From: Pontibacter kalidii
Lineage (GTDB): Bacteria; Bacteroidota; Bacteroidia; Cytophagales; Hymenobacteraceae
NCBI RefSeq assembly: GCF_026278245.1
Contig: NZ_CP111079.1
Location: 1,986,501 to 2,050,500, forward strand
Direction: 5' to 3'
Length of the DNA: 64,000 nt
Shown: positions 916 to 4,236 of the stretch, piece by piece
Numbering within the stretch: the stretch's first letter is position 1
Layout of the letters: every line of letters starts with the position of its first letter
Position numbers and translations under genes: made by a program
Notes under the pieces: model-generated
Told to the model about the DNA's origin: nothing
The model's input: the letters and a program-made list of their open reading frames with translations, nothing else
The model's database searches: none

Positions 916-1815
916 TTACTCCGCCGTAGGCGCAGGTTTTACAGGCGGGTTTTGCTTGTTTTTCAGTTCTATACCGCTAAGGACACGGCTTACGTGGTTT
1001 GCCCTGGAAATCATATCATAGGTTTCCGTCACCATTCCCTGATCGATCGCCTCTTTAAAGCGCAGCAGTTGTTGAATATAGGCATCGAGTGCTTCGGATA
1101 CATGGCCGGCGTTTTGCCTGAAGATGGGGGCCCACATGGCCGGCGAGCTCTTTGCAAGCCTTACGGTGGAGGCAAATCCGCTCCCTGCCAGGTTAAAGAT
1201 GCTTTTCTCGTCTTTTTCTATCTCCAGTACCGTAAGCCCCAAGGCAAAGGAAGTAATATGGGAAAGGTGCGAGACGAAGGCGAGGTGCCGGTCGTGCGCA
1301 CGTGCGTCCATATGAACGGTTTCCATCTTTAGGCAGGCAAACAACTCTTCTGCTGTTTCTACAGCATGGGCATCGCTGTCTGCGGCGTTGCAGATGATAT
1401 TGACCTTATTATCGAAGAGCCCGTGGTGCGCCGCGCCGGGGCCGGTATTCTCCGTACCTGCAATGGGGTGGCAGGCTACAAACTGCTTCCGGCGGGGATG
1501 TTTCTCCACTGCCTGGCAGATATGTTCCTTCGTGGACCCAACATCCAGTATGATTGTCTTATCGCTGGCAAGTTCTAAAAGACTTAAAAGAATGGCGGGA
1601 GCTACATCCACCGGCGTGGCCAGGATGATCAGGTCACATCCCCGGGCCAGGTCTGACAAACTGCCTTCTTCCTGTAAGATGCCTGCCTGTTTTGCAACCC
1701 GAACATGCTCCGGATTGCTGTCTGTGCCTATTACGCTGCTAGCAAAGCCCCTTTGCCTCAGGTCCAATGCCACGGAGCCTCCAATGAGCCCCAATCCTAC
1801 GATTCCGATTTTCAT
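916..1815 (-). CDS. tyrA: Prephenate dehydrogenase
   Basis: Oxidises prephenate to 4-hydroxyphenylpyruvate with NAD(P)+, the committed step to tyrosine; cytoplasmic. The 299-residue protein has an N-terminal Rossmann dinucleotide site GLGLIGGS at residues 7-14, DVGSTK at 91-96 and the family's HPIAGTE at 116-122, followed by the helical C-terminal dimerisation domain. Length is normal for a monofunctional enzyme without chorismate mutase or ACT domain. Start ATG at 1815. Its 5' leader holds two predicted attenuator units with Tyr-rich peptides (2159-2260 and 2014-2097), which fits end-product control by charged tRNA-Tyr/Phe. No co-transcribed aromatic gene is visible in the window. Confidence 0.93.
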   Translation of the reverse strand: MKIGIVGLGLIGGSVALDLRQRGFASSVIGTDSNPEHVRVAKQAGILQEEGSLSDLARGCDLIILATPVDVAPAILLSLLELASDKTIILDVGSTKEHICQAVEKHPRRKQFVACHPIAGTENTGPGAAHHGLFDNKVNIICNAADSDAHAVETAEELFACLKMETVHMDARAHDRHLAFVSHLSHITSFALGLTVLEIEKDEKSIFNLAGSGFASTVRLAKSSPAMWAPIFRQNAGHVSEALDAYIQQLLRFKEAIDQGMVTETYDMISRANHVSRVLSGIELKNKQNPPVKPAPTAE

Positions 1816-1963
1816 TTCTTTTCTGTTTTGATGTTCTATAATGATTTATTCAGCTTAATGCTATAACAACCCTTAGTCAGTGCGCAGGAAGCCGTTATAC
1901 TTTAACTCAGGTGTTCTCTGTTCCTGCTTTTCCTGCTCTTTTTCAATCCTGTTGCTAAACAAA

Positions 1964-1990
1964 AAAGAGTCCGCCGGTTGGGGACTCTTT
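1964..1990 (-). terminator. Attenuator terminator 2 upstream of tyrA
   Basis: On the minus strand, AAAGAGTCC pairs with GGACTCTTT around a 9-nt loop and runs into a T tract at 1966-1961. It sits 23 nt after the stop codon of the Tyr/Phe-rich leader ORF and about 150 nt before the tyrA start, the expected place for an attenuation terminator. A short GGGAC stretch inside the leader (2029-2025) could pair with GTCCC (1985-1981) as a weak antiterminator; this pairing is tentative. Confidence 0.75.
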
Positions 1991-2013
1991 CTAGGTAATG
2001 TGCCTGCTTTAGA

Positions 2014-2097
2014 TTACCATAGATGTCCCTTCTCCTTCCTGAAATAGAAGTAGTAATAGTAAAAAGGGTAATATAGGGTAAGGTTCAGCTTCATCAT
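2014..2097 (-). CDS. Aromatic leader peptide 2 (Tyr/Phe-rich, 27 residues)
   Basis: A 27-codon ORF starting ATG ATG at 2097 contains the run YYPFYYYYFYF (7 Tyr and 3 Phe in 11 residues), a Lys/Arg/Glu-rich tail, and ends W-stop at 2014. It is followed 23 nt later by a terminator hairpin and then tyrA. This is the classic layout of ribosome-mediated attenuation of aromatic amino acid genes, known for pheA and trp leaders in proteobacteria. Stalling at Tyr (or Phe) codons when charged tRNA is scarce would favour read-through into tyrA. An overlapping frame from ATG 2104 reads as Leu-rich and could be an alternative, but the Tyr/Phe frame fits the downstream gene. Confidence 0.75.
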   Translation of the reverse strand: MMKLNLTLYYPFYYYYFYFRKEKGHLW

Positions 2098-2104
2098 GTC
2101 GCAT

Positions 2105-2130
2105 AAAAAAAGCCTCCGTTCGGGAGGCTT
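2105..2130 (-). terminator. Attenuator terminator 1 between the two leader ORFs
   Basis: On the minus strand AAGCCTCC and GGAGGCTT form a stem with loop CGAAC-type sequence, followed by seven T residues ending at about 2105. It lies after leader ORF 1 (stop 2159) and immediately before the start codons of leader ORF 2. The T tract exists only on the minus strand, so it acts in the tyrA direction. Confidence 0.75.
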
Positions 2131-2158
2131 GTGTAAGATGTATTTTTCAGCACACAGG

Positions 2159-2260
2159 TCAGCCACCCTTATGACATAAGGTATGATAATAATAGCTGGC
2201 GTATGCTGTATGCTGGTGTGTAGTGCTCATTTCTGTAGGCAATGTATCACAATAATCCAT
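2159..2260 (-). CDS. Putative leader peptide 1 (Tyr/His-containing, 23 or 33 residues)
   Basis: ORF from ATG 2260 (33 residues) or in-frame ATG 2230 (23 residues), stop TGA at 2159. It carries HQHTAYASYYYH: four Tyr and several His close together, then a terminator hairpin 28 nt later. Together with leader 2 it makes a tandem leader/terminator pair before tyrA. The Tyr run is weaker than in leader 2, so this may be a true first attenuator, a decayed duplicate, or chance. A near-consensus -7 box (TGAATTTG, 2273-2266) lies just upstream. Confidence 0.5.
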   Translation of the reverse strand: MDYCDTLPTEMSTTHQHTAYASYYYHTLCHKGG

Positions 2261-2678
2261 ACTATCAAATTCACCACCTGTTTATTTCTGCACAGTAAAA
2301 TTGGCCCCTCAAGGGGAAAGTTTATACTTTAGGCAGCCCTTATACTTTATAACAGACCCTGCCGCAAGTTTAGCGTTAGCGTAACTTGTGGCAGCGCATG
2401 AAGCCAGTTTATAACTGGCGAAAGTATCAGAATGAGTATAATGCCATTTATGAACTGGCTTTTATACTTACCACCTTTACCGCTTCGCGCAGACCTGCGG
2501 TATAATGAGGTGTAATTATGAAAAACCAGCAATGGCTGATACATAGCGCTACGTTATACTTCCTGAGCAGTCTATTAAAAAAGGAGACTTCGTTCGTATA
2601 GGCCAAAAATAGCATGGAGCGAACATCAGAGCCCGCTCCACGCTATGGTTTTCTGAAGGGCTTAAAGCCCTTGCTGAA
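2261..2678. other. Non-coding interval with hairpins upstream of the tyrA leader
   Basis: About 420 bp between the efflux operon's 3' end and the tyrA leader. Visible structures are an imperfect hairpin at 2361-2392 (GCCGCAAGTT / AACTTGTGGC), a short perfect palindrome GCCAGTTTATAACTGGC at 2403-2419 with a half-copy near 2442, and several TATACTT words. A 65-codon frame inside shows no protein-like features and is not called. Confidence 0.5.
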
Positions 2679-4236
2679 TCAGGCAATCTCCTTACGCAAA
2701 AATTTTAGGATAGTCCTGCGCTTCGGGTATAGCGTGAATTTCGGGTAAAGCGGGTATCTGTAAAGTATAAACAGCAACAAAAAACCCAACGCCGCCATCA
2801 CCAGGTAACCGTACAGCTCTTTAAATGACACTAGCATTACATGGCCCTGCAACTGTCCGAATAGCGCTCCCATATCCACCTGCTGCAACTTATAGTTTAC
2901 ACTGTCTAGTCCTGAAGACAGGAGCATAAAGTTCTTCGCTGTCAGCACGTTCAGGAAATGGTGCAGAACAGCCGTTCCAAGCACGCCCCCAAAGCCGGCG
3001 CTTACAAAAGCCTGTATCGATAACGCCTGCCAAAAGTGTTGGAAAGGCACTTTCACGAGGTTGGTCAGCAGCACGATAGAGATGATCACATAGCCGAAGT
3101 TCCTGAAAAAGATAGGCACGAACAGCATTTCCCTGACAGTGGTGTAATCGATCAGGAAATACATCAGCAGTAAGTATAAAACCAGGGCGGAAAAGCCGAT
3201 CAGGAACATACTTTTGTAGGAATGTTTCTTCAGCGCAAAAAAATAATAGGCAAAAAAGGCTCCCACAAGCACCCCGGCCCATCCAAACCAGTTCATCGAG
3301 ATCAGATGCCCGGCATCGTAGTGCAGCACGGCTTCCAGGTAGATATGCTCGATCAGGTGCGCCGGCGCTAAAAAAATATCCACCATGATGTATAAAAAGA
3401 ACGTCATGTAAACGGCTTTATACTTGAAGGTCTGGAGCGAGATAAAGGGGTGCCTGATAAAGGAAGCCCGCCAGAAATTCAGGAATAAAAGTATAGCCAG
3501 AATCACCACCGCCGTCCGGATCTCGAAGGACTGGAGCCAGTCGTAGTGCTCGCCATAAATGCAGATAAAGTTGATGGTCAACAGGATCAACCCCCACATC
3601 AAACCACCCAGCCAGTCGATGCCAAACAGCGGGAAAGGTCGCATCATACGGTTATTGTTGAATAGCAGGATCGTGACCAGCATCACCAGCAGCAACAGCC
3701 CGGTGGATGTACTGCCAGTTCGAAAACAGCGCCACGTAAATACCCGAGATACCGGAAAGCAGGATGCTGCTCTGCACCAGCAAATAGATGTAGCAGAAAA
3801 AGACCGACAGGTCGCGCGTGGGCGTTAGCCACAGCTGTATGCTGGAGTTGCACTCAAAGGTAGCCCACATCCGGAAGATGCCCGCAAAAAAACAGGTTGC
3901 CACCAGCACCGGAAGGTTGTGCGTAGAGATGGCGATAACATTGCAGATAATGAGCGCGCTGCTGCAGACCAGGAAAGTATACCTGGACGTGAACCGCATT
4001 TTCAGCCGCAGCATCACCGTAAAAGTCAATGCCATCCCGATCATGGAGGCATACCCGGCCATCAGGATGTCTTCGTGCAGTAAGGCCGTGCCTCCTACCA
4101 TTTCGTTGGCCGCCGCCAGGTAAATGCCGCCCGAAAACTGAAAGATGATCACAAAGAAAATGAGCAGCCAGGGCTTCCACTTCTCGGGCACTACGTTGTT
4201 AATGGCAGGTATAGAAAAAGGTCCTTGATGATGCAT
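2679..4236 (-). pseudogene. MFS (DHA2/EmrB-type) transporter, single frameshift
   Basis: Inner-membrane drug/proton antiporter of a tripartite efflux system, third gene of the TolC-HlyD-MFS operon. The N-terminal part (4236 to about 3700, start ATG 4236) contains roughly six membrane helices, and the C-terminal part (about 3695 to 2679) continues with the remaining helices in another frame. The switch lies near 3690-3715, where a one-base shift after the Trp-Gln-Tyr-Ile-His segment restores VMLVTILLFNNN. Joined, the product would be about 515 residues, normal for a 14-helix DHA2 protein. The rest is well conserved, so this is either a recent inactivating mutation or a sequencing error; I see no slippery heptamer arguing for programmed frameshifting. 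Confidence 0.8.

Follow-up and report, generated by a model that had tools for sequence, protein, structure and literature searches.

Tandem tyrosine-rich leader peptides and a predicted double attenuator upstream of tyrA in Pontibacter kalidii

Results

Two leader-terminator units upstream of tyrA

Expression of tyrA in Pontibacter kalidii is very probably governed by two ribosome-mediated transcription attenuators placed in series before the gene. A preliminary description of this DNA had put forward such a double attenuator, and the proposal is supported by leaders, terminators and predicted competing antiterminators that are conserved at all 11 loci compared. The elements lie on the minus strand of the window (the whole 64,000-nucleotide stretch analysed) and are given here in the direction of transcription.

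2241..2269, minus strand: promoter-like TTTG-N19-TACATT (pattern match); a sigma-70-like match also lies at 2268-2241
2159..2230, minus strand: leader peptide 1, MSTTHQHTAYASYYYHTLCHKGG, with 4 Tyr, 4 His and no Phe
2161..2168, minus strand: predicted antiterminator 1 5' arm, GGGTGGCT, at the leader 1 stop codon; pairs with 2129-2122 with one mismatch in constrained folds
2105..2130, minus strand: putative intrinsic terminator 1, hairpin 2130-2110 with a T tract to 2105; listed by a pattern scan
2014..2097, minus strand: leader peptide 2 (ORF2), MMKLNLTLYYPFYYYYFYFRKEKGHLW, with 7 Tyr and 3 Phe
2056..2065, minus strand: possible protector (1:2) stem, 5' side, in Phe/Tyr codons; partner at about 2011-2020 in a consensus fold
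2025..2029, minus strand: predicted antiterminator 2 5' arm, GGGAC, in late leader 2 codons; pairs with GTCCC 1985-1981 in constrained folds
1961..1990 (about), minus strand: putative intrinsic terminator 2, fold of -14.6 kcal/mol; kept in 11 of 11 aligned loci
916..1815, minus strand: tyrA, prephenate dehydrogenase, 299 aa (NCBIfam NF006307, 344 bits against a cut-off of 295)

A protein search with TyrA (E 0.001) gave no second match in this genome. The two short aromatic-rich ORFs on the tyrA strand, each followed by a terminator, are present as had been claimed: the translation of ORF2 agrees with the Tyr/Phe run ascribed to it, and both terminators lie where they had been placed, with T tracts in the tyrA direction. 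Terminator 2 was not among the sites listed by the pattern scan, which picked out 9 terminator-like sites over 5 kb where 4.8 would be expected. For ORF1 the end at 2159 and the motif YASYYYH hold, but the start given at 2260 does not: as the ATG at 2260 falls inside the promoter-like element and all 11 loci share the one at 2230, leader 1 very probably runs from 2230 to 2159. We take the element itself to be promoter-like from the Bacteroidota -33/-7 consensus, so that its function is a predicted one; a looser form stands at the same place in 9 of the 11 loci scanned and is absent in genome G022 and in Nafulsella.

Both leaders are enriched in codons for products of the pathway, as ribosome-mediated attenuators are expected to be. 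Of 1123 window ORFs of 10-60 aa, none but ORF2 has at least 7 Phe/Tyr in 11 residues (10 in its case), and at least 4 Tyr in 7 residues are found in ORF2 and ORF1 alone. When the 865-nt intergenic region was dinucleotide-shuffled 1000 times and the tyrA strand read, an aromatic leader followed by a terminator arose once and a pair of such units never. On the census and the shuffles, chance ORFs were rejected as an explanation of the leaders. At the threshold of the shuffle test the real sequence was flagged for unit 2 and not for unit 1, and support for unit 1 therefore comes from conservation. In leader 1 of this genome the His codons equal the Tyr codons in number (4 of each) and may provide a His input; the stop codon of this leader is shifted relative to most relatives.

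Conservation of the tandem units

We sampled 50 Pontibacter genomes, 204 genomes of the family and 291 of the order. In the genus sample, 10 genomes carry a tyrA at 68-100% identity to that of P. kalidii (clade A), 17 carry another type (47-51%), 7 gave weak partial matches and 16 gave none. Both leaders and both terminators occur in order in all 10 clade A genomes, among them Pontibacter flavimaris, P. virosus, P. aydingkolensis and Pontibacter sp. BT731, and also in Nafulsella turpanensis. Alignment of the regions upstream of tyrA, as the preliminary description had proposed, showed at 11 of 11 loci the two ORFs, the two hairpins and a possible antiterminator per unit, an intrinsic terminator lying between leader and gene in every locus for each unit. 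Within the genus the alignment showed no synonymous drift, as leader 2 keeps its control codons even at third positions; an aromatic content encoded by different nucleotides was seen between genera only.

From these 11 loci we built two covariance models, R1 for unit 2 and R2 for unit 1, whose strong E-values there arise by construction. Among the 50 genus and 204 family genomes their strong matches, with the units end to end, are the 10 source genomes alone, so that the searches are informative in finding no good match elsewhere, including the other 40 Pontibacter genomes. Beyond the source genomes, R1 had weak matches in G036 and G091 alone (12 of 204 family genomes in total; 2 of 291 in the order sample), and R2 weakly matched 8 more genomes (18 of 204 in total) and G012 a second time; the weak R2 matches of G042, G047, G020 and G012 adjoin pheA. 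The R1 match in G036 (locus L106, E 8.5e-4) showed no aromatic leader by eye and was taken as chance.

A single Tyr leader precedes the other tyrA type in 4 of the 17 loci examined (L069, L070, L073 and L074). These leaders have a Tyr-rich run, an ending like SLSRDLGMGCC and then a terminator-like hairpin.

The tandem arrangement had been described as a double attenuator for a lone tyrA. It does stand before a lone tyrA in P. kalidii, P. flavimaris and G022, but it is not special to that context, as in 8 of the 11 loci it lies upstream of an aminotransferase gene followed by a fusion of tyrA with DAHPS/chorismate mutase (CM), and in 11 of 16 loci of a related genus, g4, it precedes pheA. The fusions are open frames of about 660 aa, and some gene names were assigned by eye. 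In G022 an aminotransferase fragment lies between leader 2 and tyrA (L068, 1140-1501, E 0.001) and a stop-ridden DAHPS piece follows tyrA (L068, 2386-3885, E 5e-29); no remnant of either gene was found beside tyrA in P. kalidii or P. flavimaris. The decayed pieces flanking the G022 gene make it probable that the lone tyrA is what remains of a pruned operon whose leaders were retained.

Nafulsella (Cesiribacteraceae; L004, 945-4447) has the same tandem leaders, and its tyrA, at about 75% identity, is as close as that of several Pontibacter. This closeness, together with the presence of the arrangement in only 10 of 50 genus genomes, suggests that operon and leaders moved by horizontal transfer. 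Besides the genus genomes noted above as having no tyrA match or a weak partial one, 16 of the 50 have no pheA match; genomes without a tyrA or pheA match are possibly Tyr and Phe auxotrophs.

Leaders of the phenylalanine branch

P. kalidii has a separate Phe operon composed of DAHPS, a single leader (MLHNTFYFSFYFFGTPPGLHR) with its terminator, pheA, an aminotransferase and DAHPS/CM. Across the 30 Pontibacter pheA loci examined, out of 34 genomes with pheA, 25 have one aromatic leader with a terminator and 5 have two, tandem units having been sought within 350 nt. The latter (L133-L137, from G042, G003, G030, G048 and G040) are Phe-rich, read MNKQQ..YTFFFYFFP and M..TQQNF.Y.FG.SFYFFGK.PGLY with a terminator of their own each, and make up a second tandem type in Pontibacter.

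Genus g4 belongs to the same family (Hymenobacteraceae in NCBI taxonomy). Its pheA is preceded by two leaders in 11 of 16 loci and by one in 5 (the g4 sequences read are L107, L173-L187, L233, L234 and L236); the count covers 16 of 17 genomes in a pheA sample that is not exhaustive, and the automated leader finder had overlooked several second leaders that were later read by eye. All 5 single-unit loci retain the unit-1 type. Three g4 operons read further have the order pheA-aminotransferase-tyrA-DAHPS/CM, by eye. Outside the family the finder matched at least 14 of 71 loci, some of them doubtful (L156, L213), and found a pair in at least 1 of 71 (L199, doubtful). Other Bacteroidota (e.g. L014, L019, L029 and L047) have one Phe-rich short ORF upstream of pheA, with about 350 nt of upstream sequence covered in some.

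Leader composition is biased by branch, towards Tyr in the Tyr branch and towards Phe in the Phe branch. Tyr accounts for 0.74 of Phe plus Tyr in the Tyr branch (21 distinct units, with Nafulsella counted), for 0.38 in the Phe branch (32 units) and for 0.42-0.48 in g4 (27 units); the difference between the Tyr and Phe branches gives p 2e-9 in a Mann-Whitney test that ignores kinship.

Predicted competing structures and covariation

Constrained folds were computed on the assumption that the ribosome shields about 12-15 nt past the A site. If it sits at the first Tyr codon, the segment left exposed pairs with the terminator 5' arm in all 22 units of the 11 loci, and the exposed stretch folds at -9.7 to -25.9 kcal/mol, other helices counted in. 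For a ribosome at the stop codon the fold energies of the stretch are 0 to -4.5 kcal/mol, and between 0 and 5 weak pairs join it to the arm, the weak upstream pairing of up to 5 arm bases being found in some unit-2 folds. In unit 2 of G039 and of Nafulsella the "last Tyr" lies near the stop and the antiterminator is lost with the ribosome there; the first-Tyr folds were used. In these predictions, with the footprint assumed, the antiterminator excludes the terminator and is gated by ribosome position. The terminators fold at -13.0 to -15.9 kcal/mol, so the antiterminator would have to form before the terminator in order to prevail, as happens in classical attenuation.

In P. kalidii unit 1, GGGUGGCU is predicted to pair with AGCCUCCC with one mismatch, in an antiterminator fold of -16.9 kcal/mol, so that the terminator 1 5' arm (2122-2129) doubles as the antiterminator 1 3' arm; the antiterminator 5' arm is hidden when the ribosome sits at the leader 1 stop. 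In unit 2, GGGAC pairs with GUCCC, and the GTCCC at 1981-1985 in the terminator 2 5' arm likewise doubles as the antiterminator 2 3' arm. The stem is lengthened by UCUA (TCTA, 2020-2023) pairing with UAGA directly upstream of terminator 2. The possible protector hairpin has 10 pairs in the unit 2 consensus fold, 7 of which form in P. kalidii unit 2 by alignment; the minimum free energy structure of that unit adopts another fold, and the unit 1 fold of this genome shows a possible protector hairpin.

Pairing was also assessed over 80 distinct units, obtained from 87 unit detections by removing 7 with identical arm segments (repeats or identical loci). The terminator arm prefers the stall-exposed over the stop-exposed segment in 80 of 80, a figure which, like all counts and pairing statistics given here, ignores kinship and is inflated by related sequences. 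Cognate pairing stands at -13.9 against -11.1 (sd 0.3) for permuted partners, a value reached by none of 5000 permutations; for g4 unit 1 alone the figures are -15.4 and -11.5, again with 0 of 5000. Against mononucleotide shuffles, 45 of the 80 units reach p 0.05 on their own, with p 0.032 for unit 1 and 0.018 for unit 2 of P. kalidii. Arms rich in G+C do pair across classes: T2 segments bind the single Phe-branch terminators (-14.3) better than those of their own class (-11.1), T1 segments reach -13.1 with H1 arms against -12.4 with their own class, and single Phe-branch segments reach -16.8 with second-tandem Phe arms against -14.5. We therefore do not take pairing energy alone as proof.

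The clearest test is provided by the antiterminator arms of g4 unit 1, which occur as AACGAG/CTCGTT, GTCGAG/CTCGAC and GTCGGG/CCCGAC. Over 14 loci (L107 and L174, with their arms in another register, were left out of the 16 unit-1 loci), 83 of 84 cells are paired and 3 of the 6 pairs have changed on both sides; when the arms were slid as controls, 29-34 of the 84 cells were paired.

Discussion

Proposed mechanism and alternatives

Judging from sequence, each unit would work as follows. A ribosome that finishes the leader and sits at its stop codon would cover the antiterminator 5' arm, the terminator would form and transcription would end. When Tyr-tRNA is scarce, the ribosome would stall in the Tyr-rich run and leave the antiterminator arm free to capture the terminator 5' arm, and RNA polymerase could pass. 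The gene would be reached only when both terminators had been passed, and tyrA is thus probably transcribed only when tyrosine is short. If the units are independent, read-through would be the product of two probabilities, so that basal leak is multiplied down and logarithmic sensitivities add. This multiplication in series, together with the Tyr/Phe content of the leaders, suggests control mainly by Tyr.

We tentatively consider a further possibility, about which we are rather doubtful, namely that the series arrangement is a logic device in which the gene answers to the intersection of the signals of both leaders, and that the leaders of the branches were re-tuned after an operon duplication. 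Leader 1 has Tyr without Phe and leader 2 has both, so a Phe shortage would open the second lock and not the first; tyrA would answer to tyrosine with its basal expression multiplied down. The aromatic operon would have been duplicated into Phe and Tyr branches, each re-tuning its leaders by F-to-Y codon changes.

Decay of unit 1 in the lineage of P. kalidii, leaving unit 2 alone to regulate, would fit leader 1 of this genome and of P. flavimaris, which has no Phe and a displaced stop, as well as the failure of the chance test to flag unit 1 and the presence of one unit alone in 5 of 16 g4 loci. We regard such decay as improbable, as unit 1 of P. kalidii retains its Tyr number (4, against 4-5 in relatives), its terminator and the antiterminator fold of -16.9 kcal/mol, and the unit kept by the 5 single-unit g4 loci is of the unit-1 type.

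Two other explanations were considered. The hairpins could be ordinary terminators or the ends of small RNAs, and the peptides could act in trans, like peTrpL, or have no action. PMC7298713 reports a leader peptide that acts in trans, but covariation of the antiterminator arms with the terminator arms in g4 and a leader composition that tracks the pathway branch make this very improbable here. Competition between terminator and antiterminator by itself names no sensor, and a metabolite- or tRNA-binding riboswitch (T-box-like) or a protein-dependent attenuator would show it too. We give these little credence, the least of the alternatives considered, as no Rfam family reached its gathering score in 12 related loci and the ribosome is predicted to free the arm at the first Tyr codon and to cover it at the stop in 22 of 22 units.

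Relation to known attenuators

Two ribosome-mediated attenuators in series, the reading we prefer, would build on a familiar plan. In pheA and trp operons, a single leader-peptide attenuator consists of a leader rich in cognate codons, an antiterminator and an intrinsic terminator before an amino acid gene. At a relaxed threshold the leader region gave six sub-threshold Rfam matches (Phe_leader twice, Thr_leader and three unrelated). Phe_leader (RF01859) scored 24.1 and 19.1 bits at the two units against a gathering score of 55, and the locus falls outside that family. It shares with Phe_leader and the single pheA and trp attenuators the order of leader, antiterminator and terminator and this weak resemblance at both units, but it differs from RF01859 in lying far below the gathering score, in having two units in series and in its Tyr-biased codons.

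The comparisons that follow are drawn from excerpts of the sources. An attenuator is predicted upstream of the Bacteroides thetaiotaomicron operon pheA>hisHb>aroAI-beta-aroQ>tyrA (PMC1173090, Table 7), which is alike in phylum, pathway and the presence of tyrA in an operon; it carries one attenuator symbol there, against two units here, and leader peptides are not described in that excerpt. The aromatic supraoperon of Streptococcus pneumoniae "displays two attenuator units" by prediction (PMC1173090), and thus resembles our locus in its pair of predicted attenuators, which belong to a single aromatic cluster including tyrA and pheA, but its second unit lies after tyrA within the cluster and not in tandem before the first gene, and the excerpt gives no mechanism. 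Small ORFs in B. thetaiotaomicron 5' UTRs, with attenuation predicted or inferred (PMC7366714), and Bacteroid-trp, which is named among cis-regulatory RNAs (PMC2864571), are also on record, as are amino acid operons of Flavobacterium psychrophilum, of the same phylum, for which leader-peptide attenuation is inferred but no tandem leader appears in the operons described in the excerpt (PMC9723704).

Among double systems, Salmonella mgtCBR has two leader ORFs, mgtM and mgtP, in one leader mRNA, both acting on transcription; they respond additively to different signals (ATP and proline) through stem-loops unlike intrinsic terminators (PMC3641672), whereas the tyrA locus has hairpins resembling intrinsic terminators and Tyr codons in both units, with overlapping amino acids, which sets it apart from the mgtCBR type. 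The macrolide-sensing mefA/msrD region has two transcriptional attenuators forming a "double-lock", of which msrDL is a ribosome-mediated one; the second regulates msrD alone (PMC10314930). The double-lock precedent at msrD, as far as the excerpt goes, supports the reading of attenuators in series. The rimP-leader of some Gammaproteobacteria has tandem terminators, one with a potential antiterminator, but does not belong to an amino acid operon, and its excerpt mentions no leader peptides (PMC2965389). Two pT181 attenuators in series gave a wider dynamic range (PMC3753616), and the attenuator-sensitivity analysis of Elf and Ehrenberg makes no mention of tandem units in its excerpt (PMC1183508).

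Among the matches listed, double attenuators are discussed for msrD, mgtCBR and engineered circuits; from these excerpts, single attenuators in Bacteroidota and double ones elsewhere are already in print. The same matches from the open-access literature hold neither tandem leaders of Phe/Tyr synthesis that different genera share nor a report of such control of Phe/Tyr synthesis in Pontibacter, and a tandem Phe/Tyr leader common to several genera is apparently new within that scope. These loci would be natural series attenuators on amino acid biosynthesis, with single and double, Phe-tuned and Tyr-tuned forms in close relatives. Such a natural set permits a direct test of what a second attenuator brings (a lower leak, a steeper response or a combined specificity) and provides a proposal for the control of Phe/Tyr synthesis in Hymenobacteraceae.

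Two further features of the window lie near the locus. A membrane-transporter gene at 2679-4236 (minus strand) appears to be split over two overlapping frames of 194 and 338 aa, the latter with a weak EmrB match. By eye, the motif AAGTATAA occurs several times in intergenic DNA at 690-900 and 1870-2480, and again upstream of P. flavimaris tyrA.
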